Shown here: piece after piece, positions 1-15,727 of the stretch | Layout: every line of letters starts with the position of its first letter | Position numbering within the stretch: the first letter of the stretch is position 1 | DNA from: Flectobacillus sp. BAB-3569 | GTDB lineage: Bacteria > Bacteroidota > Bacteroidia > Cytophagales > Spirosomataceae | Direction of reading: 5' to 3' | Length of the DNA stretch: 64,000 bases | Assembly (NCBI RefSeq): GCF_002270355.1 | Contig: NZ_NJFZ01000003.1 | Coordinates: 346,307-410,306, forward strand | The notes under the pieces: model-generated | The model's database searches: none | What the model was told of the DNA's origin: nothing | What the model saw: the letters and a program-made list of their open reading frames with translations, nothing else | Position numbers and translations under genes: made by a program

Positions 1-477
1 ATCACTTGTTTCTTTCAAGACCAGCATATTCATCATTTTCAGTAGGTCTGGAGAAACCTCTGTACCTCCAAAAAAGTGAAATTGTAGAAGTAGCTCTAAG
101 CCGTTATTTTTTGGTGTTTTCAAAAGCTGCTTTTGTGCTTTTGTCATCGCACCTGATCCAAAGAATGAACCTGCATCGTCGTAGATGACCACCGCATTTT
201 TGAGATAATGGCTACAGTAGTACGAAAACTTGTCATAATCATCAGACTGAAGCTTAACCACTGCATTTTTGGGCATGGGTCTTTCCAAATCTTCAAATGT
301 TACCACCTTGGTGATTTCCTTGTAGCTGGAGTTATTCGAATGGTCAAAGACAATGATTCTTTTAGGGTTATTTTTGAAGGCTCCGACTCGAAAATCGAGT
401 GAGAGTTGTAAGGCTTCGTAGGTCTTTCCTGTGTTTCGTGTACCAAAGAAGCCCCAAACGTTTCCTTTGGGATTCAT
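1..477 (-). CDS. P-loop ATPase, Zot-like / FtsK-HerA-type (partial)
   Basis: The visible 159 codons start at ATG 477 and stay open to the window edge, so the C-terminus is missing. Close to the N-terminus is a Walker A motif, GTRNTGKT (about residues 12-19). Around residue 95 is a Walker B-like strand, AVVIYDDAG, followed by a strand ending in Gln (LLLQ) and then a conserved-looking LLKMMNMLVLKE segment. This order (P-loop, acidic strand, sensor Gln, arginine/lysine-rich strand) is that of FtsK-HerA ATPases, including filamentous-phage Zot/pI and the packaging ATPases of tailless membrane-containing phages. It is the fourth gene of a tight operon (2-nt gap to the gene before it). I infer a DNA-packaging or export motor for the mobile element. 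A conjugation-type ATPase is also possible. Confidence 0.6.
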   Translation of the reverse strand, partial: MNPKGNVWGFFGTRNTGKTYEALQLSLDFRVGAFKNNPKRIIVFDHSNNSSYKEITKVVTFEDLERPMPKNAVVKLQSDDYDKFSYYCSHYLKNAVVIYDDAGSFFGSGAMTKAQKQLLKTPKNNGLELLLQFHFFGGTEVSPDLLKMMNMLVLKETSD

Positions 478-479
478 AT

Positions 480-1124
480 CTAGGTGATTTTGGCTTTGAT
501 TTTCTTGACTACTTTTATGGTGAAGTTTGAAAGAGCCTGCGGATGATGCGCAATGATATTTGAACCCATGAGTACCACCAAATCGTAAATCATGGCGGTT
601 TTACTAGGGAGTCTGTATCTGCCTTCACGTGCCTTTTTCTTCAAATCTTCGAGAATCACCAGCTTGACAAACTTTCGAATAGATTCGGTGTCTTCCAATC
701 CTTCATCTTGTTGGATTTTCTTCTTTTGCTCCACTCGCTTCTGGGCTGCTTTGACTTCGTCACTCAATGGAATAAGGTTCGCCTCAAAATCTTCGACCAG
801 TTTTTCATCGCCATTTTCGGTCGACATCTCTGCCACGATATTTCGTAGCACGCCTGTACCCGTTTTTACGTAGGAGAAAATTAGTTCTGTTTCCAGTTCT
901 GCATTTCCTTCCAAAATCACTTGGTCGTAGCTGGGTACGTATTGGGGTGTTACAACCTGTTGTGCTACGGTTTGAGGCTTGAAGGGGTTGTCAAATAGCC
1001 CTTCCACTAGCTTAGGTGCAGGAGGCTCTTCTACACGTTCAGGTGGTGAACTCATTCCCGTGAGGATGGAGTTGCCCATTTCCACACCCTCCGATATTAA
1101 TTTTAGTCTTTCTGAGAATTTCAT
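480..1124 (-). CDS. Hypothetical 214-aa protein of the mobile element
   Basis: I do not recognise the family. The N-terminal 60 residues are Pro-rich and low in structure (SPPERVEEPPAPK). Residues 105-165 are strongly charged and probably helical (VKAAQKRVEQKKK). The C-terminus has a hydrophobic patch (IYDLVVLMGSNII) and a basic tail (KVVKKIKAKI). There is no signal peptide. It sits 4 nt after the 140-aa gene and 2 nt before the ATPase start, so it is almost certainly co-transcribed and perhaps a partner of the ATPase. Confidence 0.6.
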   Translation of the reverse strand: MKFSERLKLISEGVEMGNSILTGMSSPPERVEEPPAPKLVEGLFDNPFKPQTVAQQVVTPQYVPSYDQVILEGNAELETELIFSYVKTGTGVLRNIVAEMSTENGDEKLVEDFEANLIPLSDEVKAAQKRVEQKKKIQQDEGLEDTESIRKFVKLVILEDLKKKAREGRYRLPSKTAMIYDLVVLMGSNIIAHHPQALSNFTIKVVKKIKAKIT

Positions 1125-1128
1125 GGTG

Positions 1129-1551
1129 CTACTTTTTTACGTATTGGACTCCCTTTGCTAGACCCTTGCCAGCGTACTTGATGCCAAGGTTAACAAAGAA
1201 GGACGCTACTTTCTTTTTACCTGCCTTTAGTTGGGCTTTGACTTTTCCCATCAAGGTTTTTCGTTCTTCCCATTCGATGATTAGTTTTTCGAAAACAGGA
1301 CGAAAAGCGGGTTCAAAATCAATCGCTCCATCGGCTCTAAAACAACCCATTGCGGTCATGTATTTTCCAATCATATCGAGTTTGAGTTCGTTGTTGATAA
1401 CGGCAGCATCATAAGTTTTTTTCTTGGCCAGTAATGATAGAGCTTCTTCGGAAAAAGCTTGAAATTCTTCAAGCGTCATTTCCCCGTGACTCTGATAGCT
1501 TACAATTTGTCCCTTGGTGTCTAGGGTGAGTGTAGCGAGTATTTGTTTCAT
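1129..1551 (-). CDS. Hypothetical 140-aa protein of the mobile element
   Basis: Unrecognised. It starts inside the stop of the preceding gene (ATGA overlap at 1548-1551), which shows translational coupling to the coiled-coil DNA-binding gene. The first 25 residues look like beta strands (ILATLTLDTKGQIVSYQ), followed by helices. The C-terminal third is very basic (KVKAQLKAGKKKVASFF ... VQYVKK), so contact with DNA or membrane is possible. There is no clear membrane span or export signal. Confidence 0.6.
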   Translation of the reverse strand: MKQILATLTLDTKGQIVSYQSHGEMTLEEFQAFSEEALSLLAKKKTYDAAVINNELKLDMIGKYMTAMGCFRADGAIDFEPAFRPVFEKLIIEWEERKTLMGKVKAQLKAGKKKVASFFVNLGIKYAGKGLAKGVQYVKK

Positions 1552-2648
1552 GGTTGAGAGATTTCTTCAAAGCCCTTGGTATAGTGTTTCTTCCATACAC
1601 CCGCTCCGATACGAACAAAAGCTTTCTGCTCAGAGAATCGAACTGCCTCAGCAATCAGGTTATTGAGACCCGCATCGTTAGCCAGCTTAAAAGTCTTGAA
1701 CTTATCCAGCATGGTGTTTTCGTTGTTTTCATCACGTAAACGGATGTTTTCAAGTTGAAGCGCTTTGTTTTCGTTTTGTAGTCGAATGAAAACAGGGCTG
1801 TTTTCAATGTTTTCAGGCTCAGTGGTGATGTTTTCATGGTTCTTGAAAACATTGTTTTCGTCCAGCAGCCGTTTGTTTTCATCCTGTAAAGCAATGTTTT
1901 CAATGTTTTCAGACTCAGTGCAGATGTTTTCATAATTCTTGAAAACATTGTTTTCCTCTATCAGGCGTTTGTTTTCATTCTGTAAAGCAATGTTTTCACT
2001 TTGAAGCTGAATGAAAACAGAGTTGTTTTCAATGTTTTCAAACTCAGTACTGATGTTTTCATGATTCTTGAAAACATTGTTTTCGTCCATCAACCGTTTG
2101 TTTTCATCCTGTAAAGCAATGTTTTCACTTTTAAGCTTGATGAAAACAGGATTGTTTTCAATGTTTTCATGATTTCTGAAAACATTGTTTTCGTCCAGCA
2201 ATCGTTTGTTTTCATGCTTCAATTGAATGATTTCATCCTTTAGAGGATTGATGTTTTCATCCAACAAGGTTTGGAACTGTGCTCGGATTTCGACTTCTCG
2301 TTCAGGGGTGAGTAGGCGCTCATCGTTTTCGTATAAGCCAAATGTTAGACCATTGAAAACATAGTGAGCCAAGGCAGACTGAATAATGTTTTCATGAGTT
2401 TTCAGCTCAGTATTTTCTTCGAGTAGGGTATCAAGTTCACGAAGCTGCTCAGGTGTGAGGTGTATGAAAACAGTGTTTTCATGCTTAGGTGTATTGCCTG
2501 CAAAAGTCTTTTCAAGAATCTCGTTAAGGAAATCACTAGTGTTTTGAGAGCTTCTTAGCCAGTCAGCAATTTCAGGTCTTACTCTTGCTCCAATCTGGAC
2601 GGTACGTGCAATGTTTTCAGCCATGTTTTCAATGTTTTCATGAATCAA
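1548..2648 (-). CDS. Ribbon-helix-helix/coiled-coil DNA-binding protein carrying its own repeat array
   Basis: 366 aa. Residues about 16-50 (TVQIGARVRPEIADWL, then SDFLNEILEK) have the strand-helix-helix pattern of an RHH/Arc-type domain. A second similar block (VFIHLTPEQLRELDTLL) follows. Residues about 140-310 are a long coiled coil of about four imperfect repeats with LQDENKRLLDENNVFKNHEN-like wording; the C-terminal 55 residues are not repetitive. The layout (small DNA-binding head, long coiled-coil tail) is that of KfrA-like and single-protein plasmid partition factors; that is analogy, not homology. The dipeptides EN and VF are written almost always GAA-AAC and GTT-TTC, giving a DNA motif array described separately. 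First gene of a four-gene operon that ends with the ATPase. Confidence 0.75.
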   Translation of the reverse strand: MIHENIENMAENIARTVQIGARVRPEIADWLRSSQNTSDFLNEILEKTFAGNTPKHENTVFIHLTPEQLRELDTLLEENTELKTHENIIQSALAHYVFNGLTFGLYENDERLLTPEREVEIRAQFQTLLDENINPLKDEIIQLKHENKRLLDENNVFRNHENIENNPVFIKLKSENIALQDENKRLMDENNVFKNHENISTEFENIENNSVFIQLQSENIALQNENKRLIEENNVFKNYENICTESENIENIALQDENKRLLDENNVFKNHENITTEPENIENSPVFIRLQNENKALQLENIRLRDENNENTMLDKFKTFKLANDAGLNNLIAEAVRFSEQKAFVRIGAGVWKKHYTKGFEEISQP

Positions 2649-2708
2649 GACCGATGTTTTCGTTTGTTTTCATCGGTGTTTTCATCATGAAATTAGTAGG
2701 CTATTGAC

Positions 2709-2725
2709 GAAAACATGATGTTTTC
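2709..2725. promoter_or_regulatory. Palindromic operator-like site of the GTTTTC array
   Basis: GAAAACATgATGTTTTC is a perfect 8-bp inverted repeat around one base. It lies in the intergenic region between the leftward coiled-coil gene (start 2648) and the rightward HTH gene (start 2836). It is built from two facing copies of the array hexamer, so it is the best single candidate for a dimer-binding operator. Confidence 0.6.
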
Positions 2726-2773
2726 ATGCGAGCACATTCGATTTTGTCCGTATATATCCGTTTTTATCTCTTT

Positions 2774-2801
2774 TTTGCACAAGTGATTTTTAGTAAATTT
2801 G
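2774..2801 (+). promoter_or_regulatory. Bacteroidota-type promoter for the small HTH gene
   Basis: A TTTG at 2774-2777 and TAAATTTG at 2794-2801 match the Bacteroidota -33/-7 boxes (TTTG and TAnnTTTG) with 16-nt spacing, slightly shorter than usual. Two array hexamers (2805-2810, 2818-2823) lie just downstream, where a bound protein would block initiation. Confidence 0.5.
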
Positions 2802-2835
2802 TATGAAAACCTAAAACGAAAACATTGGATTTATT

Positions 2836-2996
2836 ATGGGAGCTTCTACGATAGTTAATTCTGCAAGCATCGCTCAACTCATGGGCTGGACAAAGGAATA
2901 TTCGGCAAAGAAAATTAGAGAGGTAAAAAGGCAACAGGTTGTGCATACGTCACCTTTGCAGATTGTGCCAAAGCTTGGAAAGTGTCAATGTCGTAA
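2836..2996 (+). pseudogene. Small helix-turn-helix protein, frameshifted in an A5 run
   Basis: Read as it stands, the ORF runs to 3024 and ends in an unusual basic tail. If one A is added to the A5 run at 2925-2929, the frame becomes IREVKKATGCAYVTF...DCAKAWKVSMS and stops at 2994-2996, a 53-aa protein. That version matches the pattern of small Bacteroidota HTH proteins: a recognition helix, then IR-x(n)-GK and a vTf-x-eF/C segment. N-terminal residues ASIAQLMGWTKEYSAKKIRE form the likely HTH. It is the only rightward gene inside the left half of the element, shares a regulatory region with the coiled-coil gene and ends at a strong terminator. The family assignment is from pattern memory. Confidence 0.5.
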
Positions 2997-3031
2997 AACA
3001 AAGCTCTCTTCTAAATACTACTGATAAATGT

Positions 3032-3064
3032 AAACGCCCACCAATTCACAATTGGTGGGCGTTT
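3032..3064. terminator. Bidirectional rho-independent terminator
   Basis: AAACGCCCACCAATT and AATTGGTGGGCGTTT form a perfect 15-bp stem with a 3-nt loop, with A and T tracts on either side. It separates the rightward HTH gene from the leftward gene at 3160-3501. Confidence 0.9.
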
Positions 3065-3159
3065 TATGTTCTTAACTTTTATTGATGAATGAATGTAAGA
3101 TTAATACAAAATAAGTAGTGCTTTGCTACTCAATAATTTATTTACAGGAAAAGCTGCTC

Positions 3160-3501
3160 TTAATTTGAATGTAACAAATCATATTGACTTCGTAGGTTAT
3201 CAATGTATTTAATCACATCTGAGTCTGAAAACTCTTTAATATTGATGGTAGAAGACAAGCCTAATAACAAAACTATTTGCTCTAATATCTCCCTATTTTT
3301 ATTACTCTTGGCTTTCTGATAATATTCTGCTGAAGCTCTGTAAATTTCACAATCCAACTGGTGCAGACTTTTTTGAAGTATATCATCAGTAGATTCCAGA
3401 AAAAAATAAGACTTATTTTTTAAGGATTCAGCTAAGTAAACCTGCTCTGAATAATAAAAGTTGTAATTGTCATAACTAATGAATAATTCAGGTATATCCA
3501 T
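3160..3501 (-). CDS. Hypothetical 113-aa protein
   Basis: Unrecognised. Acidic N-terminus with many Tyr (ELFISYDNYNFYYSEQVYL), then helical charged segments. No signal peptide and no membrane span; LEQIVLLLGLSS is a short hydrophobic patch. It stands alone between two hairpins (3032-3064 and 3653-3679), so it may be an independently expressed cargo gene. Composition is more AT-rich than the neighbouring operon genes. Confidence 0.5.
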   Translation of the reverse strand: MDIPELFISYDNYNFYYSEQVYLAESLKNKSYFFLESTDDILQKSLHQLDCEIYRASAEYYQKAKSNKNREILEQIVLLLGLSSTINIKEFSDSDVIKYIDNLRSQYDLLHSN

Positions 3502-3652
3502 AATAGTATTGTTGATGTAAGGAATTAATCATGTGATAAATATACTAAATTATTCTATTACGCAAACTCTGTAATATCCAAAATTGATTAAAATCAGTTT
3601 CTTAATCTTGAAGTTTTTTACGCTAATATAACTACCCTTACATCACACAAAG

Positions 3653-3679
3653 GCCCCACAACCTAAATGATTATGGGGC
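3653..3679 (-). terminator. Hairpin downstream of the toxin-antitoxin pair
   Basis: GCCCCA (3653-3658) pairs with TGGGGC (3674-3679) across a 15-nt loop, directly after the toxin stop codon at 3685. The T tract on the minus strand is weak, so termination may be partial. Confidence 0.5.
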
Positions 3680-3684
3680 GTTTG

Positions 3685-4098
3685 CTAATTTATAACCTTG
3701 AGTTTTGGGTAAAAAGGGAAATAAGCATCTGTGCTTAAAACTGGCATATCTTCATAGATTGACTGTGCGATGATAAGTAAGTCAAATGGATCTCCATGAG
3801 GTTTTGAACTACTTGCCTTAGGAAAGACCTTTGGTACGTTCAAGATTTCATTGATATGCTCGTTTTTGACTGGTAATACTTGTACCCTTTTTAGTAACTC
3901 TTTGATGGCATCTTTGTAGGGGATGTTGAAAGGGTTATTCCCTTTTCTAACCTTAATGGCAATCTCATGCAAGCTGGCATTACTAATGTATAATTGGCTG
4001 CTAGGGTAGGTTAGTATTTTTTGCTGTTCTTTGGATAATTCTACAGTCTCTTTATTAATCCAAAAAATCAATATGTTACTATCGAGTAGGTATGTCAT
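3685..4098 (-). CDS. PIN-domain ribonuclease toxin (VapC-like)
   Basis: 138 aa from the ATG at 4098. It opens MTYLLDSNILIFW, the classic PIN strand with the first catalytic Asp (D6). It continues with Glu in SNASLHEIAIKV, Asp in DPFDLLIIAQ and Asp in LSTDAYF, the acidic set that binds metal and cuts RNA in VapC toxins. An upstream in-frame ATG at 4143 would overlap the antitoxin gene, so I reject it. The antitoxin ends TAG-C-ATG, one base before this start. It probably stabilises the mobile element. Confidence 0.88.
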   Translation of the reverse strand: MTYLLDSNILIFWINKETVELSKEQQKILTYPSSQLYISNASLHEIAIKVRKGNNPFNIPYKDAIKELLKRVQVLPVKNEHINEILNVPKVFPKASSSKPHGDPFDLLIIAQSIYEDMPVLSTDAYFPFYPKLKVIN

Positions 4099-4099
4099 G

Positions 4100-4249
4100 C
4101 TAAGATTTTTTGATAACCACTTGGGTTCTGTTTTTCTCAACAAACTTTTTGCGCTCTTCTGGAGTCATTAGTTCGTGAGGCTCTAAAATACCTTTGTATC
4201 TAATTTTAGGGCTTCTAGTAGCAGGTGTTTGAATCGTTTTAGTTGCCAT
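4100..4249 (-). CDS. Small antitoxin partner of the VapC-like toxin
   Basis: 49 aa: starts MATKTIQTPATRSP, contains LEPHELMTPEERKKFVEKN and ends QVVIKKS. It is too short for usual ORF cut-offs. Its stop is one base from the toxin start, the standard antitoxin-toxin order. The basic, disordered start may bind DNA, while the acidic LEPHELMTPEE helix could lie in the toxin groove. I cannot name its family. Confidence 0.75.
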   Translation of the reverse strand: MATKTIQTPATRSPKIRYKGILEPHELMTPEERKKFVEKNRTQVVIKKS

Positions 4250-4280
4250 GTCGGAAATCGTTTTAGTTAAACAAATATAG

Positions 4281-4682
4281 CTAGAAAATCACAAAGTCGT
4301 TGTCTAACTTGTATATAAATTCATAGAACTCTTCACGGCTATCGGAGGATTTTTTAGGTACCCAATTCGTTAATCCTTGGTCTAATTTATCTCTGATAAA
4401 TTGTACTTCGTTGGTAGTATAGAGTCCTAAAATACTAAAAAGTGCCTGAGCTTGATAATAGTGAAGCTTAATCTTTTTGATGCCAGCCTTGGACAATTTC
4501 AAATTTTCAGCAGAAACTTGAAATATTGAATCAAAAAGTGTTGCAACAATGATTTCGGGAGCAATAGTGTACGATTTGTGTATTTTAAAGTGGGACGTAA
4601 CCATAACGTTTTGTCTGAATGTGACTTGTCTGAGAAGTTGATACTCAAAAAGGTCTATTTCGATGGTGATTAGATTTATCAT
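4281..4682 (-). CDS. Hypothetical 133-aa protein
   Basis: Unrecognised soluble protein with alternating hydrophobic strands (INLITIEIDLFEYQLLRQV) and a helical middle (IKKIKLHYYQAQALFSILGLY). It overlaps the preceding gene by 4 nt (ATGA at 4679-4682), so the two are translationally coupled. No transmembrane segment or catalytic motif is visible. Confidence 0.6.
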   Translation of the reverse strand: MINLITIEIDLFEYQLLRQVTFRQNVMVTSHFKIHKSYTIAPEIIVATLFDSIFQVSAENLKLSKAGIKKIKLHYYQAQALFSILGLYTTNEVQFIRDKLDQGLTNWVPKKSSDSREEFYEFIYKLDNDFVIF

Positions 4683-4984
4683 GTGTCCAATTGGTTAGCA
4701 ACCTCTATAAATTGACAAAATCCCTTGATAGCTTGCTTGAGCTTTTTGTTCTCAGTCTGTAATTCTTCTATTTCTTTGTTGGACTTGTGTCGGTGGGAAT
4801 TGTAAGTCTGCCTAAGCCCTTGTAACTCTTCTGTTTTCTCTCTGTAATCTCTTAAGATAAACTCAAAGACAGATTGTCCAGTTTTAATGTTTTCCTTCTG
4901 CATAACTTGGTTCATGATTTCGACCAAGTCTGCATTTTCATCGTTGTCTAACCCACGGAGGGTCATTGTTGAGAATTGCTTCAT
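4679..4984 (-). CDS. Small RHH-like protein with C-terminal coiled coil
   Basis: 101 aa. Residues 4-50 (FSTMTLRGLDNDENADLVEIM ... then SVFEFILRDYREK) can be read as strand-helix-helix, as in ribbon-helix-helix repressors. Residues 50-90 are a coiled coil (EELQGLRQ ... IEELQTENKKLKQAIKG). It overlaps both neighbours by 4 nt. Likely a DNA-binding accessory protein of the element; the assignment is tentative. Confidence 0.55.
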   Translation of the reverse strand: MKQFSTMTLRGLDNDENADLVEIMNQVMQKENIKTGQSVFEFILRDYREKTEELQGLRQTYNSHRHKSNKEIEELQTENKKLKQAIKGFCQFIEVANQLDT

Positions 4985-5085
4985 TTTGATAGGATTAAAA
5001 AGATGATGACTAAAAATGCGGTAAACACGTTTGCGACTGTTTCTGCCAGCAGCTCGACTTCTAGGTGTTCTTTACGTTTTTCCAT
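4981..5085 (-). CDS. 34-aa single-span membrane microprotein
   Basis: Starts MEKRKEHLEVELLAET, continues with one hydrophobic span (VANVFTAFLVIIFLIL) and ends SK. Its stop overlaps the next start (ATGA at 4981-4984), the best evidence that it is real. Small one-helix proteins in a replication operon are typical of filamentous or membrane-containing phages, where they serve as coat or assembly proteins. That role is inference. Confidence 0.6.
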   Translation of the reverse strand: MEKRKEHLEVELLAETVANVFTAFLVIIFLILSK

Positions 5086-5087
5086 GA

Positions 5088-5327
5088 TTAGAGTTTATGA
5101 GCTTTGTTTTTGCAGTTGGCTTTATGCGTAAGTTGAATGTTGTAGTTGATCACCACAAGGATGTATTCGCAACTATCAATTTCTACCAAAGATATTCCAT
5201 GTTGTATCTGTTGATAGGGTAGAATGTGCTTGTATTTCACTGGTGGTGGTTCTTTCTGAGAAAAAGCTGCAATCGCCAGAAGTGTGAGTATTCCGACAAT
5301 CAAGGTGTTTTGAGATTGAAATTTCAT
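5088..5327 (-). CDS. Small exported protein, 79 aa
   Basis: An N-terminal signal sequence (LIVGILTLLAIAAFSQ, cleavage likely around residue 23) is followed by a short domain with two Cys (VEIDSCEYILVV ... THKANCKNK). The HK-x-NCKN ending is reminiscent of small Bacteroidota mobile-element proteins, but I cannot name a family. The ATG lies inside one copy of a TTTGCTATCAA repeat on the opposite strand. It ends 3 nt before the start of the 34-aa membrane gene. Confidence 0.6.
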   Translation of the reverse strand: MKFQSQNTLIVGILTLLAIAAFSQKEPPPVKYKHILPYQQIQHGISLVEIDSCEYILVVINYNIQLTHKANCKNKAHKL

Positions 5328-5461
5328 TTTGCTATCAATTTAGAGTAAACTTTTGCCTGAGCGATGTTTGATCGGTGTGAGCTGCCTTAAATTTTGCTAT
5401 CAAAATTTGCTTAAAAGAGAGCTGCATCAATTCCCTGGTCTTTCAATTTGCTATCAATTTT
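5327..5461. repeat. Three copies of TTTGCTATCAA
   Basis: TTTGCTATCAA occurs at about 5328, 5393 and 5447, in the gap between two element genes and touching both. The spacing is 65 and 54 bases, and a GCAGCTC word is also duplicated, so this is an imperfect tandem duplication of about 60 bp. It may be iteron-like or just a duplication scar; it lies directly downstream of the replication-type gene. Confidence 0.55.
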
Positions 5462-5720
5462 GCGAGTCGCACATTAAGAACCTTTTCAATGTCTTGTCGT
5501 ATTGGGCAATCATTTTGCCATTGTATCCTACCTCGTAGATATAAGCATTATCTATCGGGTCTTTAAAACCGCTCACAAGCTTACAGGCTGCTTTGAGGCG
5601 TTCGGAACTATTTCTACCGAAGATGATTAAATCGGATGCTCCTTTGATTGGAAGCCATACTCCATTGGGTAAGATGTACTTTAGTTTCCATTTCACTACT
5701 GGTGCTGATGTTGATTGCAT
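5454..5720 (-). CDS. Hypothetical 88-aa protein
   Basis: Unrecognised small soluble protein (VVKWKLKYILPNGVWLPIKGASDLIIFGRN). It has a predicted beta-rich N-terminal half and ends MCDSQN. It overlaps the end of the replication-type gene by 25 nt, so translation is coupled. No motif of known function. Confidence 0.6.
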   Translation of the reverse strand: MQSTSAPVVKWKLKYILPNGVWLPIKGASDLIIFGRNSSERLKAACKLVSGFKDPIDNAYIYEVGYNGKMIAQYDKTLKRFLMCDSQN

Positions 5721-7030
5721 GGTCTTAGAAAGTTAGTTGTTTTTAGGAAGTAGTTGAATTTTTGTACATAGTCGCTGTTGGTTTTTACACTCAATTTGCG
5801 ACTGTAATATTGGGCTAATTGGGTAATATCCTTGATTTTATTCCCTTGTCCACGTGGTACAACACCTGTCATTGGGTATTGCATCATAGTCAATTTGGCA
5901 CGCTCAAGCTCTTTTTCGAATTCTATCTCTCTGAGTGACTTTTCGGCTTTTTTAGCCCATTGTAGCACTACCAAGAATCCTTGTTTTTGATGTGTTCCGT
6001 AGTCTTTCGAGAAGTATTTTGTTGGGTGATAAGCCTCTCTGTCCTTACGAGCGTCAAAAGCTTGCTTTTTATCCGCCCAATACTGGAGGGTCATGCTATA
6101 AATCTGCCAGAATTCGAAGGTATTCTCCTTTGGATTCTGGTTTTTGAACCCGTTAAACACATCTCTGTGAATAACTTTCTTGATTTCGGACTCAATTGGG
6201 GTATAGTTGCGTTGTGGGTAGAACACATCTTTCACATATTTCCAGAAGTTGTTTACAATCGTAGCCTTTTCAAGGTCAGTTAAGCCCTTTGGCTCTGGTT
6301 TTGATGCATTTTGGTAGCGAATCTTGTTTAGAGTGCCTTTGCGGTAAGCTTCAAAACGTTCGTCTGAACTGATAAAAGAATTTTCGGCGCCCCCCGTGTT
6401 TTTTTCTTGGCAGTTTTCTTGGTCATTTACAAGGTTTTGGGCTATTTCTTGTTTTTCTTGGCCATTTTCTTGGTGTCTTTCTTGGGATAGGTTTTCCACA
6501 TCTTCCGCTATATATGAATTACATAGATTTTCTATTTGGTTACTTAAGTGTGGCAAAGTTTGCACCTCTGAGAGGGAAAAGGCTTTCAAAATGGTAGTTG
6601 GCTTTTCTGACCAGCTTTGGATTTTTGGTTTGAATTGGTCGATTCCAAGCAATAACCAGAGGTTTAAAGCTATCTTGTAGCCATTAACTCTACCTTCTTC
6701 AAACTCCTCTACAGTAATGACCCCGAAGGTGCTTAGACGTGCCAAATGGTCTTGTACAGCCCTGCGGCTGCAACCACAAAGGTTTGCCAAATCCCAACGA
6801 GTAATATGTAACAAGGGCACACGGTCAGAATCAGCCCACAGAGGACTATTCATACAGTTCCAAAATTGCTTGAGGTACAAGTGTGCAATAGATTTCAATT
6901 TTGATAGATGTGGCTCACGCAACATGGTGCTTTTGGTAACGAATTGTACATCGTTATGCTCTTTCGCAAAAGCATGATACCTTTCGATTACCTGTCCAAA
7001 TTGGTGACTAAACGTTTTTTCAATTCTCAT
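5696..7030 (-). CDS. Winged-helix replication-type protein
   Basis: 444 aa. Residues about 75-130 form a clear winged helix: HITRWDLANLCGCSRRAVQDH (recognition helix), then LSTFGVITVEEFEEGRVNGYKI (wing). Residues 180-230 are a Gln/Asn/Glu-rich linker (ENGQEKQEIAQN). The C-terminal half is rich in aromatic residues and Lys (FWKYVKDVFYPQRNY, MTLQYWADKKQAF, YHPTKYFSKDYG). This architecture resembles plasmid/phage initiator or DnaD/O-type replication proteins. It is the largest gene of the operon and its position suggests it starts replication of the element. No HUH or primase motif is seen, so rolling-circle nicking is not supported. Confidence 0.6.
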   Translation of the reverse strand: MRIEKTFSHQFGQVIERYHAFAKEHNDVQFVTKSTMLREPHLSKLKSIAHLYLKQFWNCMNSPLWADSDRVPLLHITRWDLANLCGCSRRAVQDHLARLSTFGVITVEEFEEGRVNGYKIALNLWLLLGIDQFKPKIQSWSEKPTTILKAFSLSEVQTLPHLSNQIENLCNSYIAEDVENLSQERHQENGQEKQEIAQNLVNDQENCQEKNTGGAENSFISSDERFEAYRKGTLNKIRYQNASKPEPKGLTDLEKATIVNNFWKYVKDVFYPQRNYTPIESEIKKVIHRDVFNGFKNQNPKENTFEFWQIYSMTLQYWADKKQAFDARKDREAYHPTKYFSKDYGTHQKQGFLVVLQWAKKAEKSLREIEFEKELERAKLTMMQYPMTGVVPRGQGNKIKDITQLAQYYSRKLSVKTNSDYVQKFNYFLKTTNFLRPCNQHQHQ

Positions 7031-7110
7031 ATTTGTTTTTGGTATGTAGTGACAAAACTTCGCTTGTCAGGGCTTAGAATCATCACTACGCTATTTCCCG
7101 TTGTTTCTGC

Positions 7111-7127
7111 CAGAGAGTCGAACTCTG
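7111..7127 (-). other. tRNA T-arm-like hairpin
   Basis: On the minus strand, CAGAG-TTCGACT-CTCTG has the shape of a tRNA T-arm (perfect 5-bp stem and TTCGACT loop), within the 220-nt gap between two element genes. I could not fold a whole tRNA around it: no matching 5' acceptor half. It may be an attachment-site remnant or coincidence. Confidence 0.3.
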
Positions 7128-7253
7128 AGGACTTTCAAGGACGAAAATCCCTTCCAAAACAGACTTTGTAATGATAACTTTACTGGTTATACGTCGGTAA
7201 ACAATCCCCACTCATAAAGGAATGGGGTTGTCCCAACTCTCTTTCTAAATAAA

Positions 7254-7781
7254 CTAACACTCAGTTGGTGGAACAAGGATATATCCACCGTTTGATTCTT
7301 GATAATGATACTCTTTTCGTGGGTCGAGTCGAATAGAACGACCATCTTTTAGTAAGAAAATTTGAAGGGTTGTACCCATCATGATTCTTTTAGCGATCTG
7401 ATCTGAGAGGTCTACACACTTTTCTCTTCTTTCATCCTTTACCTCTTTTATGATTTGCTCCAGTTCAATCTGTCTAGTTGCTCTTGGTCGCTCTGGACTG
7501 ACCATCGGTTGTACGACAACATTTGGGATTCTTGGTCTACTTCTTCCTTTGAGCCAATCTTGCAGGACAAAGTAGGGATGCTCGTACTGCCTATGATTAG
7601 CGACAATTTCCACCATGATGTCGTATAAGTCCATGACATTGATTTTACAAGTATCAAGCTTATAATTTTCGTGAAAAACCCTAGAGTTTAGCCCAATCTC
7701 AATAAGCTTTTTTCTAAAGAGTTCTTGGTCACGAAAGCACATGGCATCATAGACTTTGTTGAGGATATTCGGACGTTTCAT
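7254..7781 (-). CDS. Hypothetical 175-aa element protein
   Basis: Unrecognised. I prefer the internal ATG at 7781 (MKRPNILNKVYD) to the ATG at 7835, because the 18 extra residues look unstructured. It has a helical N-terminus, a basic Pro-rich middle (KGRSRPRIPNVVVQ), a charged helix (QIELEQIIKEVKDERREK) and a beta-rich C-terminus (LQIFLLKDGRSIRLDPR). It lies in the leftward operon upstream of the replication-type gene. Confidence 0.55.
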   Translation of the reverse strand: MKRPNILNKVYDAMCFRDQELFRKKLIEIGLNSRVFHENYKLDTCKINVMDLYDIMVEIVANHRQYEHPYFVLQDWLKGRSRPRIPNVVVQPMVSPERPRATRQIELEQIIKEVKDERREKCVDLSDQIAKRIMMGTTLQIFLLKDGRSIRLDPRKEYHYQESNGGYILVPPTEC

Positions 7782-7867
7782 AGGTTTAAGGAATCTTGTC
7801 AGTGGCTCTTTCGTAGAGCCACATCCCAAATACAACCAAACAAACTAAATCAACTAAAACAGACATT

Positions 7868-7969
7868 TTACAAACAGTTAGTAGGTGGTCTTCGATTGTT
7901 CTTAAAGTACCAAGCCATGAGTAATCCTCCGATTACGAAGCCAGCATAAATGTGAAAGTCGCTATTCAT
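7868..7969 (-). CDS. 33-aa single-span membrane microprotein
   Basis: MNSDFHIYAGFVIGGLLMAW is followed by a basic tail (YFKNNRRPPTNCL). The short N-terminus, one helix with a GG pair and positive C-terminus match the topology of minor coat proteins of filamentous phages (N-out, C-in). It is too short for database searches to settle, and the evidence is topology and operon position only. Confidence 0.5.
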   Translation of the reverse strand: MNSDFHIYAGFVIGGLLMAWYFKNNRRPPTNCL

Positions 7970-8047
7970 GAGTTTAATATTAGAGTTGAAAATGACAAAA
8001 TTAAGTAAAAATCAACTCATGAGTCGAATACCAACTTGTTGGGATGC

Positions 8048-8209
8048 TTACTCATCGGTATCCTTTCCGTAAAGTAAATCTTTCAAAAACTCAGAGCGAT
8101 TAAGTACTTCACCTAACATCGCAATCAAAAAAGCACCCAAACACATTGCAAGTATAAACTGCATAAGTGGATCAGCGGACAAAGAGCGAACTAATTCGGG
8201 TATATTCAT
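8048..8209 (-). CDS. 53-aa membrane protein, coat-like
   Basis: I use the ATG at 8209 (MNIPELVRSLSADP), since the upstream ATG at 8257 adds a poorly coding extension. One transmembrane helix (MQFILAMCLGAFLIAMLGEVL) is followed by a charged tail (NRSEFLKDLLYGKDTDE). Size and layout fit a small virion membrane or holin-like protein; no family is recognised. Confidence 0.55.
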   Translation of the reverse strand: MNIPELVRSLSADPLMQFILAMCLGAFLIAMLGEVLNRSEFLKDLLYGKDTDE

Positions 8210-8349
8210 GGTGTAATAGAGGGTTAAATGAACGTAATGAACTATTAATCCAAGCAAATAAAATTCTTAACTTAGTAGGGAAGACAGGGGGTGGAAGTAA
8301 TAAATACCACTCTAAACCCCACCCCATAGAAGTCTTCCTAGAAACAACT

Positions 8350-8535
8350 ATGGAACTATCCATCGTTCAGCAACTGATACGTCTGCTGATAAACTCTGAC
8401 GTATTCTCAAAACTGAGTAAAAACACTAAGAATCTTTTGAAAGCTCTATTTATAGGGCTATCTGTTTGGTTGTTTTACAAGCAGTTTTTACAAAAAAAAT
8501 CTTCATATTTGACTTTTTTGTTTCCCCTATGCTGA
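8350..8535 (+). CDS. Possible 61-aa membrane protein on the opposite strand
   Basis: MELSIVQQLIRLLINSDVFS is followed by a span LLKALFIGLSVWLFY and a short basic tail. Its stop codon falls in the loop of the terminator at 8522-8556, which is good support for a transcript ending here. A longer frame back to 8167 crosses the start of a leftward gene, so I do not use it. Moderate doubt, as it opposes the operon. Confidence 0.4.
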   Translation: MELSIVQQLIRLLINSDVFSKLSKNTKNLLKALFIGLSVWLFYKQFLQKKSSYLTFLFPLC

Positions 8536-8556
8536 ACAGTGTAGGGGAATTTTTTT
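8522..8556 (+). terminator. Rho-independent terminator
   Basis: TTCCCCTA (8522-8529) pairs with TAGGGGAA (8542-8549), followed by seven T. It serves the + strand gene at 8350-8535. Confidence 0.8.
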
Positions 8557-8623
8557 GTGAACTCTCAAAGGCAACAGTAGGGAAATACATTCCCTACCGT
8601 GCAAGCAATAGAGTTCTAAACCA

Positions 8624-8776
8624 TCATTTGCCTTTTGGGCAGTATCTACATTGTTGGCAATTGCAATCATAACTTTCACCGCTGTTATCGTATGACTTTG
8701 GCTTTTTCTTATCAAATGTCATAGACGCTATCGCTAATACAACGGAAAAAAACATTAGTACAAGAAAATCATTCAT
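8624..8776 (-). CDS. 50-aa membrane-anchored Cys-cluster microprotein
   Basis: The start MNDFLVLMFFSVVLAIASM is a membrane anchor or signal. It is followed by a basic hinge (DKKKPKSYD) and a C-terminal cluster C-x-C-x2-C-x2-C (CNCQQCRYC), ending PKGK. Four closely spaced Cys suggest metal binding or disulfides. It is second in the leftward train after the regulator at 8882-9076. Unrecognised family and unusual for its size. Confidence 0.55.
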   Translation of the reverse strand: MNDFLVLMFFSVVLAIASMTFDKKKPKSYDNSGESYDCNCQQCRYCPKGK

Positions 8777-8881
8777 ACAATTAAGGTTTAAGAATTTGAG
8801 TGAACTTAATGTTTTTCACCTCCAATTTTTTAAGGGTATAAGGATGTAAAGTTGTCATAATTATGAATCCTAAATACTTTG

Positions 8882-9076
8882 TTATGCGCCATCAATTTCA
8901 AGTAAACTTTTCAAAACTCCTATCTCAGCTTTCGACCAATTATATTCACCTGACATTTTTTCTTGGAAGTTTCGTTCCTTGTATCCAAAAGTATTACATA
9001 CAACATCCTTTATCTGTTTTCGGTCAACTCGTGTCAGCGAGCGATAGGCTTTTTTTATTTCATCCTTCGAAATCAT
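8882..9076 (-). CDS. Small Cro-sized regulator-like protein
   Basis: 64 aa, helical throughout (DEIKKAYRSLTRVDRKQIKDVV, then KERNFQEKMSGEYNWSKAEI and VLKSLLEI). The pattern of a basic helix, a short loop with NF, and a GEYNWSKAEI helix resembles small phage DNA-binding proteins that face an XRE repressor. It is the first gene of the leftward train, opposite the repressor at 9294, the usual place for a Cro-like or excision/activator gene. Function inferred from position. Confidence 0.55.
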   Translation of the reverse strand: MISKDEIKKAYRSLTRVDRKQIKDVVCNTFGYKERNFQEKMSGEYNWSKAEIGVLKSLLEIDGA

Positions 9077-9117
9077 AGATATGTGGTATATTTTTTTAAT
9101 GAACTAAATAACTACAA

Positions 9118-9221
9118 ATCGCACTTTTCGTTTTATATTCGTATATAATTCGTTTTTTGTGCGATTTATGAATACAAATATCGTACAAAAATGTTATTAT
9201 CCAAATATTAATCGTACAAAA
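9118..9221. promoter_or_regulatory. Repeated operator-like boxes between divergent regulator genes
   Basis: ATCGTACAAAA occurs twice in direct orientation (9180-9190, 9211-9221). ATCGCACAAAA occurs on the opposite strand at 9154-9164, and ATCGCAC also at 9118-9124. All lie in the 217-nt gap between the leftward operon and the rightward XRE repressor, the expected site for repressor binding. Confidence 0.6.
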
Positions 9222-9293
9222 GTGTGATTTTTATTAAAATATTTAATTTTTGTGTCAAATGGCTTAATCAAAAGCATTTAAAAAGGTACAATT

Positions 9294-9653
9294 ATGAAAA
9301 ATTTCGCAGAAAAGTTAAAGAAAGCTCTTAAAGAAAAAGGAATGACTCAGGTCGAACTTTGTGAAAAAATAGGAATGTCTCAAGGTGGTATAAAAAGAAT
9401 GATTGATTCAGGTAGTACCAGAGTTGATACATTAGAAAAGATTTGTGAAATTCTTGGTGTTCCTATTACTTACTTTCTGGATGTTGAGACAAAAGAAGAA
9501 CCTGTAGGTTTTTGGAAGCGATTAGTTGAAGAAGCTACTACTGAAGCTCAGAATTGGAAGATTAGAGCATATCAATTAGAAGAACAGCTAAGTAAGAGCG
9601 GAAATTTTAAGTATGTTAGTAGAAGACAAGGCGTGTTGGCAAGTGTGGCATAG
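9294..9653 (+). CDS. XRE-family (CI-like) transcriptional repressor
   Basis: 119 aa. Residues 5-60 are a complete Cro/CI-type HTH: FAEKLKKALKEKGMTQVELC, IGMSQGGIKRMI, TLEKICEILGVPITYFL. It is followed by a coiled-coil-like helix (AEYNWK-type, here AQNWKIRAYQLEEQLSK) that may dimerise. It faces the leftward gene train across repeated boxes, so it probably keeps the mobile element silent. There is no LexA-type protease domain, so induction would need an anti-repressor or another route. Confidence 0.85.
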   Translation: MKNFAEKLKKALKEKGMTQVELCEKIGMSQGGIKRMIDSGSTRVDTLEKICEILGVPITYFLDVETKEEPVGFWKRLVEEATTEAQNWKIRAYQLEEQLSKSGNFKYVSRRQGVLASVA

Positions 9654-9689
9654 GTTTTTTTTGCCCAATTTACTAACATTTCTACTAAC

Positions 9690-9754
9690 AGTTGCAAGTT
9701 CAGACTTGTAAGCCATTGAGTATCAAGTAGGTTCGATTCCCGTACGGACTACGC
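9690..9754 (+). other. tRNA 3'-end-like fragment, possible attachment site
   Basis: The stretch ending at 9751 contains GTAGG-TTCGATT-CCCGT (T-arm shape with one mismatched pair), then ACGGACT and A, like the last 25 bases of a tRNA. The matching 5' acceptor is absent and the upstream bases do not form an anticodon stem. A terminator follows at 9775. It sits exactly where the element ends after its repressor gene, so a tRNA- or tmRNA-derived att site is a reasonable reading. Confidence 0.4.
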
Positions 9755-9774
9755 AGTGATTATTAACGACTTGC

Positions 9775-9802
9775 AAGCGAGCTTTTTAGCTCGCTTTTCT
9801 TG
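9775..9802 (+). terminator. Rho-independent terminator after the tRNA-like fragment
   Basis: AAGCGAGC (9775-9782) pairs with GCTCGCTT (9789-9796) with a TTTTTA loop, followed by a T-rich tail. Confidence 0.8.
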
Positions 9803-9863
9803 TTTTTAGCATATTCGTTATTCCTGCTAAATCCTTCACGAAAAGCTTCGGTTCCATAGCTAG

Positions 9864-10037
9864 TCACATGAACTTGTCATATTTGTTCACCAAATGGCGA
9901 AGAATATAAATCACCCTACTACTCTTGAGCGAGTAGTCTGTTTCTATGAAAAGTATTTCTCGATTGTAATCATCTATCATATTAAAGCTTCGGAAGGAAC
10001 GCCCGTTACTCAAAACATCACTCATGAAGTATATGTT
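9864..10037 (-). pseudogene. IS3-family transposase (orfB) remnant
   Basis: The minus strand reads [18 protein letters not shown], then [18 protein letters not shown] and [14 protein letters not shown] before a stop. This is the DDE core of IS3-type orfB (usual wording DFMSD-L-GR-FR-FNVIDD-NRE). The first catalytic Asp position reads Tyr, and nothing of the rest of the IS is present. The neighbouring 10.0-10.5 kb shows no intact gene; one short degenerate minus-strand frame (AVKSSKSSPTEIAKILIEFE) is unrecognised. Confidence 0.7.
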
Positions 10038-10411
10038 CAATTAAGGTCATACACTAATATTTAATCATCCTGAATGGATTGGTAGCTTAGCCTAAACTAC
10101 TTTTGCTCGTTTTGAAGATACAATCCGTATAGGTTCTTTCATCTCTAAAGATCTGTCAGATTCAAATTCTATAAGAATCTTAGCAATTTCGGTTGGACTA
10201 GATTTGCTACTTTTCACAGCCCAAATTAAATTTCCCTAGCTTTTATCCTTACTATTTGGGAGACTCTTACAATCATAGATGATGATTTGAAATTCTTATT
10301 GAGAGCTACAAGGATTGTTAAAAGTAAAAATGAAGGCTCTGATTGCTGGACAAAACAAGAAAGTTTTATTCAGATGTATCGACTTTTTCACCGAATTTTG
10401 TAAAAACAGTA

Positions 10412-10456
10412 TTAAACTGTTAAAAAAGTGAGTCCAAAACTAATTCTTGAACTGGT
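10412..10456. repeat. Dispersed repeat, diverged copy of the 41.3-kb repeat centre
   Basis: AAACTGTTAAAAAAGTGAGT, then CCAAAACTAATTCTTGAACT, closely follows the sequence at about 41296-41338 (AAACTGTTTTAAAAAATGAG, then TCCAAGACTAAGTCTTGAAC). It is one arm of an inverted repeat at 41.3 kb but appears alone here, so it is a mobile or recombining intergenic repeat. Confidence 0.6.
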
Positions 10457-10559
10457 AATTCAATTTTATCCAGAAATCAGATAAAGGCTGATTTCACTTA
10501 TAAATAAACCTCTCTTTCAAACACTTTGGTCGCAAAAATATCGACTTTGAGTATTTTCC

Positions 10560-11567
10560 CTAATTCTCCAGATCTGCCTCTTCGTTTAAAAACTCTTTAT
10601 GAAAGTCGTCTACTTGAATTTTGTTTTGATACTTGTCAAACAAAGGATTTGGGTATTTTGTGATGGCAATTGCAAGATACATTCCTAATGTTTCTCGTCT
10701 GAATTTGTTTCTTGTGCCTATAGTTTTGTCAAATAATGCCAATGTTTTGTTATTAGGATACTGGGCTAATGCCTGATACAGTATTCTCCATGTGGGGTAG
10801 CTATAGCGTTTATGTCTCCATTTTTCCTCAAAAACTTTAATGAGAAATGGATAAAATTTAGGATCAGGAAACTCTCTAACTGCCCAAATTGCATGGTATA
10901 ATGTTTTGTCATTCGCAAAATAGCTTTCAATAATCTCCTTATCTTGTTGTTTCTTGTATTTAGCCAACGCTATAACTGACACTGGAACTCTTTCGTTTAG
11001 CGCTATATCTCGTATCCTATCATAATACAAGGGGGCGCCATTGGTTCCCTTGATTCTTCCTTCTTTATAGGCAAGGCGGATTTTGGGATCGTAAAATAAT
11101 AGGCTATCAATTGCTACAAGATTTGCATGGTTTTTAACGAAATAGGTACTGTCTTTGGTTGCCAGAAAGTAATAAAATGTTTGTAGAAAATAATCGCCTG
11201 TCATTTGTCGCCAACCAAAGCAACCTTGCCGTACTGAAACTAAACTTGTGTCGTAAAGGTGTAGTCTTAATACTGGAATTATTTCAATGCTGTCTTTTGC
11301 GCAGAGCGCTTGAAAAGCTGCACACTTAACAAGAGTGTTCGTGCTTTTTGTCAAGTCCAAAAGCTCTTTGGAAGTTGAAATGTTTGTCAGTCGGTTTAGA
11401 CATTTACATTGACTTGACTTTATATCTGTGTCTCCGATATATAGCCCGCACAGCGCGTTATATGAAGCGATACTATCGACAAGAGATTTTACTTGTGACC
11501 TCACAGCCTGCCCAAAAGTAAATATCGGACAACAGCAAATAACTAACATTTTTAACCTTATCTTCAT
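10560..11567 (-). CDS. Exported hypothetical protein with HEAT-like helices
   Basis: 335 aa with a signal peptide (LKMLVICCCPIFTFGQ, cleavage near residue 20). The rest is almost all helical, with repeated helix pairs around Tyr/Pro/Asp turns (LVKCAAFQALCAKDSIEIIPVL, KTLYHAIWAVREFPDPKFYPF, RILYQALAQYPNNKTLALFD), like HEAT or ARM solenoids. Six Cys lie in the N-terminal half. No family name. It stands alone, leftward, with T-rich DNA after its stop. Confidence 0.6.
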   Translation of the reverse strand: MKIRLKMLVICCCPIFTFGQAVRSQVKSLVDSIASYNALCGLYIGDTDIKSSQCKCLNRLTNISTSKELLDLTKSTNTLVKCAAFQALCAKDSIEIIPVLRLHLYDTSLVSVRQGCFGWRQMTGDYFLQTFYYFLATKDSTYFVKNHANLVAIDSLLFYDPKIRLAYKEGRIKGTNGAPLYYDRIRDIALNERVPVSVIALAKYKKQQDKEIIESYFANDKTLYHAIWAVREFPDPKFYPFLIKVFEEKWRHKRYSYPTWRILYQALAQYPNNKTLALFDKTIGTRNKFRRETLGMYLAIAITKYPNPLFDKYQNKIQVDDFHKEFLNEEADLEN

Positions 11568-11614
11568 TTTGGGAGTTACAGTTGTAGGACTACCTTCTAT
11601 TTTTGGGTTTATTT

Positions 11615-12160
11615 TTATTCAAAATACCATTCAATATTATTTGTCTTGTTTTCAAATATCCTTTTAAACTTTCTGTATTCAACACATCCTTTTTGTGCAA
11701 TTTGAAAGTCATGGTTCTTTTCGTCATTGAAATAAATTGTCACATTGTCACTCCCTAAAATGAGTTTGTAAGTGGCTCCATATTCGGAAAGAATCCACTC
11801 AAAAGTGGGAGACTTAACAATCGTTATGTTCATCTCCCACTTTTTTAATTTGGTAATATTTGCAGTTACTTTTGGATGATGTAACCATTTTTTCACATCA
11901 CTAGGGTTTATTTCGTCTTTTTCATCAAATAAATAAACTGATAAAATTGGTTGATTTTGTTCCGCTCTCTGCGCAATTTTCTTAAAATCTATTTCAGTAA
12001 CCTCAAACACTGAATCGTCAAAAATATCTTCAAGATTTGAACCTGGATTAGGACAAAGTAGGCTAGTTACAGGTGCGTCGGTATTGTTGGAGTAATAAAT
12101 ACATTCATTACCATATACGGTTCCAGTAGCTTTCCCAAATGTTACAAATCCATAGTCCAA
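11615..12160 (-). CDS. Hypothetical 181-aa protein
   Basis: Unrecognised, soluble, acidic. It has a beta-rich N-terminus (YGFVTFGKATGTVYGNECIYY) and a C-terminal strand-helix region (ILSEYGATYKLILGSDNVTIYF). Proteins of this size and composition in accessory regions are often immunity proteins, but nothing here proves that. It is preceded by a bactofilin-like fragment in the same orientation. Confidence 0.5.
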   Translation of the reverse strand: MDYGFVTFGKATGTVYGNECIYYSNNTDAPVTSLLCPNPGSNLEDIFDDSVFEVTEIDFKKIAQRAEQNQPILSVYLFDEKDEINPSDVKKWLHHPKVTANITKLKKWEMNITIVKSPTFEWILSEYGATYKLILGSDNVTIYFNDEKNHDFQIAQKGCVEYRKFKRIFENKTNNIEWYFE

Positions 12161-12222
12161 GATAATAATTGTGGGAGATAATATATCACCTCCTACAAAA
12201 ATGCTCCCGTGATTGTAAAATC

Positions 12223-12510
12223 CTAAAAAACTTCAGCAACATTTAAGTTGCCATTAATATTGATATCTTGTCCGGCGACAATAATGTTTTTAGCGCTCAC
12301 ATCTCCTAGAACTACTAAATGAACACCGTAATCAGACTCAAAATTATAAATGTTATTTACTTCTAAATTTCCATTTACTAATATCCCAATTATATCGTTA
12401 TCGTAATTCTCATTATCTAAATTCAAATTGTCGAGTACAGTGTCACCATCATAAAGCAAAAAAGAAAAATCTTTGTTTGCGTCTGTCCAATAATCCCAGA
12501 AAACTCTCAT
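12223..12510 (-). CDS. Short polymer-forming (bactofilin-like) beta-repeat protein
   Basis: 95 aa. The second half reads IIGILVNGNLEVNNIYNFES, then HLVVLGDVSAKNIIVAGQDI, NINGNLNV: the short G-x-hydrophobic beta turns of bactofilin or polymer-forming folds (VxGNLxVxNI). The family is usually longer, so it may be truncated. The insertion sequence begins about 15 bp upstream of its start codon and may have removed its promoter. Confidence 0.5.
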   Translation of the reverse strand: MRVFWDYWTDANKDFSFLLYDGDTVLDNLNLDNENYDNDIIGILVNGNLEVNNIYNFESDYGVHLVVLGDVSAKNIIVAGQDININGNLNVAEVF

Positions 12511-12524
12511 GTTTGAATCATCTA

Positions 12525-13505: not shown

Positions 13506-13535
13506 TACAAAATTTCTAAAATACAAAAACATCAC

Positions 13536-14047
13536 ATGATAACTTTAAGCATTTGTTTGAGCTTTATTCTCACAACTTATAATCAATTGAATACGCATTT
13601 CGGAACGTTTACACCAAGTATTTCTCTATCAGTAGTGAACAACAATAATGGTTTGAAGAGTGCTGATACAAGTATAATCGTCTTGAAAAAATTAAAATAT
13701 ACGTTGTTGGACATTAAAGATTATAAGACTGGCAAACGACAATTACTCATTCAAAAAAATCATGTAACCCAAGGTAAAATATTTTTTTAACTCCTGATGT
13801 AGCGCAGGGGTTCTCCGTAAATTGGATTAAAGAAACAAGTGCTGGCTTTGAAGTATCAATAGATTATGGGTCAAGGTATTATGTTCAAAAGATTTTCCAG
13901 TTTGTTTTCGAAAACAATAGCTTTTATTTAAAGAATATCATAACGAGTTCTTTCGATAAATATAGCCCCGAAAAGTATGAGAAAACAACTAAAAAACTAA
14001 AGAAGCCTTTCAAATTGACTAATTTTAAAATGGAAGATTTTGTGTAG
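13536..14047 (+). pseudogene. Unrecognised gene frameshifted in a T7 run
   Basis: The open frame starts at 13536 and stops at 13790, right after a T7 run (13782-13788). With one more T the reading continues LTPDVAQGFSVNWIKETS, FEVSIDYGSRYYVQKIFQ and on to a stop at 14045-14047, about 170 aa in total. The first 30 residues are hydrophobic (possible signal). No family recognised. It begins 30 bp after the IS right end and ends just before the terminator at 14082. Confidence 0.55.
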
Positions 14048-14081
14048 TATTTTCTTGAATTGTTATTTCAGGACAAGACAA

Positions 14082-14139
14082 CAGTTTATCAAAAAAGGCG
14101 TTCGAAATTTGTTTTTCGAACGCCTTTTTTGATAAACTG
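14082..14139. terminator. Near-ideal bidirectional terminator
   Basis: Two 26-bp arms (14082-14107 and 14114-14139) pair perfectly around a 6-nt loop. The core is GGCGTTCGAAA/TTTCGAACGCC with A6 before and T6 after, so it works in both directions. It lies between convergent genes (13536-14047 rightward, 14252-15700 leftward). Confidence 0.95.
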
Positions 14140-14251
14140 CAATTTAATGCTAAAGTGCTAATAATCAAAGTGTTGTAATGATGATGTGAGAGTGCAAATT
14201 CTATCATCATCATGTAATCGCAATTACACAAATTCGGGATTAATAGCAATT

Positions 14252-15700: not shown

Positions 15701-15727
15701 TATATATTGATTTGAAAAATACGGTAA

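Follow-up and report, generated by a model that had tools for sequence, protein, structure and literature searches.

At one edge of a 64,000-nt stretch of the genome of Flectobacillus sp. BAB-3569 (hereafter the window, which lies within contig C48 of a 6.6-Mb genome), in what appears to be an integrated, tailless-phage-like element, the first gene of an operon is densely filled with copies of a single six-base word, GTTTTC/GAAAAC. This gene, which we refer to as the array gene, precedes two further genes, p140 and p214, and a packaging-type ATPase gene (Table 1). A first-pass annotation made from the sequence alone had described about 49 copies of the word over 1.1 kb, read within the gene as EN or VF through GAA-AAC and GTT-TTC, with one copy in a different frame, seven outside the gene, and a palindrome at 2709-2725. 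Our recount reproduced each of these features, the figure of seven holding when translation starts at the TTG codon considered below.

Table 1. Positions of the features discussed; the first nine rows are in window coordinates, the last five in coordinates of the locus named.
Feature	Sequence	Position	Strand	Basis or remarks
Packaging-type ATPase gene, first 159 codons	Window	1..477	-	Runs past window edge; 235 codons in genome
p214, operon gene 3	Window	480..1124	-	Relatives in 7/13 loci (phmmer)
p140, operon gene 2	Window	1129..1551	-	Syntenic relatives in 7/13 loci (phmmer)
Array gene, 366 codons: ribbon-helix-helix (RHH)-like head, coiled-coil repeats, C-terminal tail	Window	1548..2648	-	Open frame, codon counts
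Site array, 49 GTTTTC/GAAAAC	Window	1716..2823	both	Counts and shuffles
Divergent intergenic region with 7 upstream sites	Window	2649..2835		Includes inverted pair 2709-2725
Small divergent open reading frame, 62 codons	Window	2836..3024	+	Open frame; no Pfam family
Three TTTGCTATCAA copies, a separate iteron-like set adjoining the replication gene	Window	5328..5457	+	
Replication initiation protein of the element	Window	5696..7030	-	phrog_270, E 5.2e-6
Non-coding array	L024	7281-7700		
Non-coding array	L027	8579-9219		
Non-coding array	L028	8947-9495		
Non-coding array	L029	10259-10416		
Non-coding array	L030	6236-6477		

The word is overrepresented in the window as a whole (102 copies against 62.1 expected, a number reached by 0 of 100 shuffles), and no 6-mer was equally frequent in any of 200 dinucleotide shuffles of the gene region. 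Within the array, 37 sites lie on the plus strand and 12 on the minus strand. The start of the gene is uncertain, with TTG at 2648 and ATG at 2624 equally possible; 42 of the 49 copies fall inside the gene and seven upstream with the former, whereas nine are upstream with the latter. The extended form of the word is TGTTTTCA, with the 5′ T present at 46 and the 3′ A at 39 of the 49 copies. Spacings between in-gene sites are chiefly 9, 12, 15 and 21 bp, the last corresponding both to seven codons, or one coiled-coil heptad, and to two turns of DNA. Pooled spacings also showed some periodicity near 10.5 bp (R of 0.47 versus 0.24 under the null), but this phasing is only suggestive given that the null is crude and we chose the set of spacings ourselves.

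Codon usage in the gene separates the word from the peptide that it encodes. EN dipeptides use GAA-AAC in 32 of 33 cases and VF dipeptides use GTT-TTC in all nine, the copy at 2398-2403 being the one in another frame, whereas codons in the remainder of the gene are mixed (10 GAA and 10 GAG for E, 13 AAT and 8 AAC for N, 6 TTT and 4 TTC for F). When synonymous codons were shuffled with the protein and its codon usage held fixed, a mean of 24.8 and a maximum of 32 copies arose, and none of 300 shuffles reached the 42 observed. Comparison with relatives gave a similar picture. A search of 99 genomes recovered the array gene in three, namely its own and two of four others of the same genus, and its own genome holds a close copy on contig C60 (93%) and a distant one on C22 (57%). 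Between C48 and C22, two-fold degenerate and valine codons in shared EN/VF motifs carry 0 synonymous changes in 46, compared to 23 in 53 elsewhere (Fisher 5e-8); codons for the four motif amino acids that lie outside motifs changed in 15 of 33 cases (2e-7). The window gene and its relative G002:C171 differ at 0 of 84 motif codons and 16 of 107 others (8e-5), and across all 15 pairs of six genes there are 0-2 changes in motif codons and 6-24 in other codons. The head of the gene shows an ordinary coding pattern between C48 and C22, with 42, 22 and 67 of 95 sites differing at codon positions 1, 2 and 3. The first-pass annotation had held that freely varied EN/VF codons in related genes would count against a binding array; the contrast between C48 and C22 shows that they are not freely varied. 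Together these comparisons support the view that the array is under constraint at the level of DNA and is not merely a protein repeat. Two observations concern the copies themselves: in the C22 element the motif extends, with 20 sites, through the ATPase gene and the next gene (L022 6174-7250), and L026 (4048-4911) carries a chimeric gene with a C22-like head and a C48-like tail, which suggests recombination within the array.

The same arrangement of sites is found outside genes. Non-coding clusters of 9 to 27 sites are present on contigs C44, C81 and C88 of the same genome and in two other genomes (G001:C49 and G002:C159). They are built of 63-bp units (3 x 21) in which sites follow the order and spacing of the gene repeat, with insertions and losses that break the frame. 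Comparison of 18 complete, distinct units, in which pairwise counts are not independent, gave a divergence of 3.6% of bases for the three core sites and of 35.8, 29.6 and 33.7% for the spacers at would-be codon positions 1, 2 and 3; as spacer divergence is equal at all three positions, the spacers evolve as non-coding DNA while the core motif is kept. Site pairs 21 bp apart outnumber those of a reversed control in G000 (44 against 16), G001 (20 against 14) and G002 (34 against 11), and two same-genus genomes that lack the array gene gave 4 against 13 and 5 against 13. Two of the five arrays lie near AbiEii genes (L027, L029) and one beside the HsdM and specificity-subunit genes of a type I restriction-modification locus (L024); further neighbors are a ParA-Rep3 unit (L027) and a PAS-domain regulator (L028). 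The non-coding arrays could be decoys, packaging sites of hitchhikers, tethering sites or relics. In L029, a ParA/Rep3 unit, named through its L027 homolog, is flanked by inverted repeats of up to 312 bp (10517-15853), with the array outside one arm.

We then used the ATPase of the operon as an anchor for synteny. It is present in 16 of 222 genomes of the family (7 of 36 genera) and in 10 of 390 of the order. In a scan of 30 anchored loci (L089, L090, L123 and L124 lay outside it) with clustered 6-mers called at -log10 P >= 7, 17 have their strongest cluster at the position of the array gene, 1.0-2.9 kb upstream of the ATPase, and the cluster at this position ranks second in L111 and L120. Among 29 syntenic genes the top 6-mer was matched by at most 2 of 300 synonymous shuffles in 14, with L117 left out because a frame change, seen by comparison with the GTTAAC-type copy L118 in the same genome, breaks up its gene. 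For comparison, 14 of 380 other genes of these loci pass at no more than 1 of 100 shuffles, and in three of these the word is that of the array in the same locus. The 29 genes are not independent: phmmer places their proteins in 14 groups, six of which have in-gene arrays, and Runella is the sole protein group with two words.

The words themselves differ between lineages. Six Flectobacillus-type genes carry GTTTTC, L096 and L097 (Pseudarcicella) GAAATC, L111 GGAAAC, L118 (which belongs to a second type of element in the genome of the window) GTTAAC within CGTTAA, L119-L121 GTAATA, and L122 GCGGTA. One reading (VN) dominates in L118 as in the window, while the L111 word is read as GN, GFL, GFP, VS, AET, MET and KFP and that of L119 as VI, GNT, SNT, VLP, SIT and YY. 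All word sites of L111 and L118 lie in the gene, with none in the 400 bp upstream. Other loci have the array upstream of the gene, as in L094 (Runella zeae, 24 GGAATC in 300 bp), L092 (seven ACGTAA) and L093 (six ACGTAA exactly 10 bp apart), and L116 has a weak upstream cluster of TATACA. Orientation is mixed in L111 and L094. Elsewhere in these loci, eight GTAAAC copies, above synonymous shuffles, occupy a membrane-protein-like gene about 3.8 kb upstream of the ATPase in L113, and a second array in L094 (12 GTTACA, 11190-11431) lies by a replication-type gene; L119 (GTTACA) and L120 (ATTACA) have comparable clusters, all perhaps replication iterons.

A structure model of a 235-residue relative of the ATPase matches B204, and computation thus assigns the predicted protein the B204/P9-type packaging ATPase fold; 15 genome loci and two viral loci contributed to the alignment. 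p140 or p214 is found beside the ATPase in 10 of 13 loci (phmmer). The first-pass annotation had proposed a single-gene system, which is doubtful because the array gene leads an operon that holds this B204-like ATPase. It had also proposed an RHH head and a coiled-coil tail, and this remains plausible but unproven. The RHH-like head, at about residues 12-50, is assigned by pattern, and a second beta-alpha-alpha unit may perhaps lie at residues 58-103; the structure model places a strand at 17-22 and helices at 25-33 and 41-45, with a predicted local distance difference test (pLDDT) score there of about 30-46. Among 10 syntenic relatives scanned, L116 passes the RHH_1 cut-off (23.6 against 20.5 bits) and L093 falls below it. 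An above-cut-off Pfam match to BBE in the repeats (1.7e-5) spans 17 residues only and was taken as an artefact of composition. Alignment of the head against PDB sequences gave 15 matches, none of them an RHH entry, and a search for the array protein in viral contigs found no relative.

One explanation, which we favor tentatively and at somewhat less than even confidence, is that a tailless-phage-like element encodes an RHH-like coiled-coil protein that binds the array in its own gene and marks the genome, most likely for packaging. Many copies of the protein would bind TGTTTTCA along the array and the promoter region, and the resulting nucleoprotein body, with its sites bridged, would tag the DNA as the element's own; the genome could then be passed to the B204-like ATPase of the same operon, much as a small terminase acts at pac. 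The protein may also repress its own operon, and lineage-specific words would separate the genomes of relatives. The array, its conservation as DNA, the reappearance of such arrays with different words at the syntenic position, and the fold of the ATPase are computational observations, whereas the identity of the binder, the bridging of sites and the purpose of packaging are what we infer from them. For the head as binder speak its position, the co-segregation of words with protein groups and the RHH_1 match in L116.

Several results weigh against this explanation. The array protein itself matches no RHH family in Pfam and its structure model is poor (overall pLDDT 47.5), and the small divergent open reading frame, which by eye has positional counterparts in several related loci, possibly encodes a DNA-binding protein that binds the array instead. 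Sites are also gained and lost, as repeat codons with a site in C48 or C22 differ at 20 of 156 bases. In the same 18 non-coding units, divergence at the fourth site is 20.8%, and in the three units of L030 motif and spacer diverge alike (4/72 and 4/117). The upstream arrays of L091, L093 and L095 are non-significant by count (matched in 14, 21 and 113 of 200 shuffles), that of L093 being remarkable solely for its exact 10-bp spacing, and L088, L098, L099, L100, L110, L112, L113, L114, L115 and L116 have no recognizable array.

Alternative scenarios must be weighed against these data. That the array lacks any DNA function, and is a coiled-coil repeat whose codons are alike because it grew by tandem duplication, would account for the in-gene copies being mainly EN/VF in a duplicated unit and for a repeat number that varies among paralogs. 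Yet motif codons are fixed while neighboring codons vary, the array includes one out-of-frame copy and seven copies beyond the limits of the gene, the core motif is kept in non-coding arrays, and the words of L111 and L119-L121 are read in several frames; we consider this scenario very improbable, and a protein repeat with biased codons is ruled out by the codon contrast, the synonymous shuffles, the multi-frame words and the non-coding arrays. Recognition at the level of RNA is unlikely because sites occur in both orientations. Silencing or autoregulation alone, in which the protein coats the array and represses its own late operon, with the divergent gene forming a lysogeny switch, is consistent with the seven sites in the divergent promoter region, with the upstream position of the L094, L092 and L093 arrays, and with the continuation of sites into downstream genes in C22 and Pseudarcicella. 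About 40 sites exceed the need of an operator, however, and the absence of word sites from the 400 bp upstream in L111 and L118 leads us to favor packaging over plain repression; repression as the whole function seems quite unlikely.

A role in partition, with the array resembling a centromere and an RHH adaptor akin to omega, ParR or pSK1 Par maintaining the element as an episome, is a more serious competitor, albeit one we still consider unlikely. The element encodes a replication initiator and contains iteron-like repeats, a short-repeat array lies near an RHH-like gene as in partition systems, and the six L093 sites are regularly spaced. RHH proteins with short repeats in both orientations over promoters are moreover the layout of omega/parS of pSM19035, where 7-bp repeats in either orientation overlap promoters (PMC9499535). 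As described there, the omega/parS repeats are contiguous, lie at promoters outside genes and have a ParA partner, whereas the sites here are mostly 9-21 bp apart and in the gene. All copies in this analysis are integrated. Packaging is preferred over partition because the anchor neighbor is a packaging-type motor and no ParA, ParM, TubZ or other partition nucleoside triphosphatase was found among the subset of element proteins scanned.

The remainder of the element offers further context. The three TTTGCTATCAA copies compare with 0.14 expected, and none of 100 shuffles had three. Near them and the replication gene, 4679-4984 (-) encodes a second small protein with, by eye, an RHH-like start and a coiled coil; weak coiled-coil matches such as that of 4679-4984 to a head scaffolding protein or terminase small subunit were not used. 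A PIN-domain protein (Pfam) and its small upstream partner, paired by position, at 3685-4249 (-) are probably a toxin-antitoxin pair, and a DDE_Tnp_4 transposase lies at 12695-13495 (+). No RNA family reached its Rfam gathering score in positions 1-12000. In the related locus L101, a TIR-domain protein is encoded within the element (7720-8544, -).

Some parts of this arrangement have precedents. DNA-binding heads joined to coiled coils occur in KfrA and pSK1 Par, and F TraY and R388 TrwA have tandem or single RHH units next to a motor gene; to our knowledge, the sites of all four lie outside coding sequence. Judging from the title of a cited paper, the terminase of phage SPP1 reportedly represses its own synthesis. 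The pac site of SPP1 overlaps promoters, a ribosome-binding site and the stretch of gene 1 coding for the small-terminase DNA-binding domain, and the gene 1 product gp1 recruits the ATPase gp2 (PMC6316719). SPP1 is therefore a known case of sites lying over the gene of the protein that binds them, which qualifies the first-pass statement that no array was known inside a coding sequence. The array gene shares with SPP1 the proximity of a packaging motor gene, here in the same operon, and conserved sites lie within the gene and its promoter region, where its product would be the binder. The differences are a short word repeated about 40 times, an RHH-like head, the separation of the putative binder from the ATPase by two genes, and a B204-like motor in place of a large terminase. 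The likeness to the packaging ATPases B204 of STIV and STIV2 and P9 of PRD1 is one of fold, and we know of no pac array in this lineage. PRD1 packaging requires a terminal protein, and packaging could work in an entirely different way where the genome is circular, as in PM2 (PMC4267777).

A broader proposal, which we regard as speculative and rather unlikely as a whole, is that tailless phages of the B204 lineage carry a self-marking cassette in which the recognition gene is itself a pac-like site and a short word, replaced in each lineage by another, shapes its coding sequence, the non-coding arrays then being host decoys or packaging sites of hitchhikers; the AbiEii and restriction-modification neighbors described above are of interest here. 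Narrow searches of titles and the beginnings of abstracts found no description of a dense array that shapes a coding sequence and whose word is swapped in relatives. The locus is a striking example of a DNA word shaping protein-coding sequence, and across lineages the same syntenic position is occupied by at least five different words. If the array is the recognition site, the way in which tailless viruses of circular genome select their own DNA would become testable, and the use of other words by related elements may represent a possible way in which such viruses mark DNA as their own.
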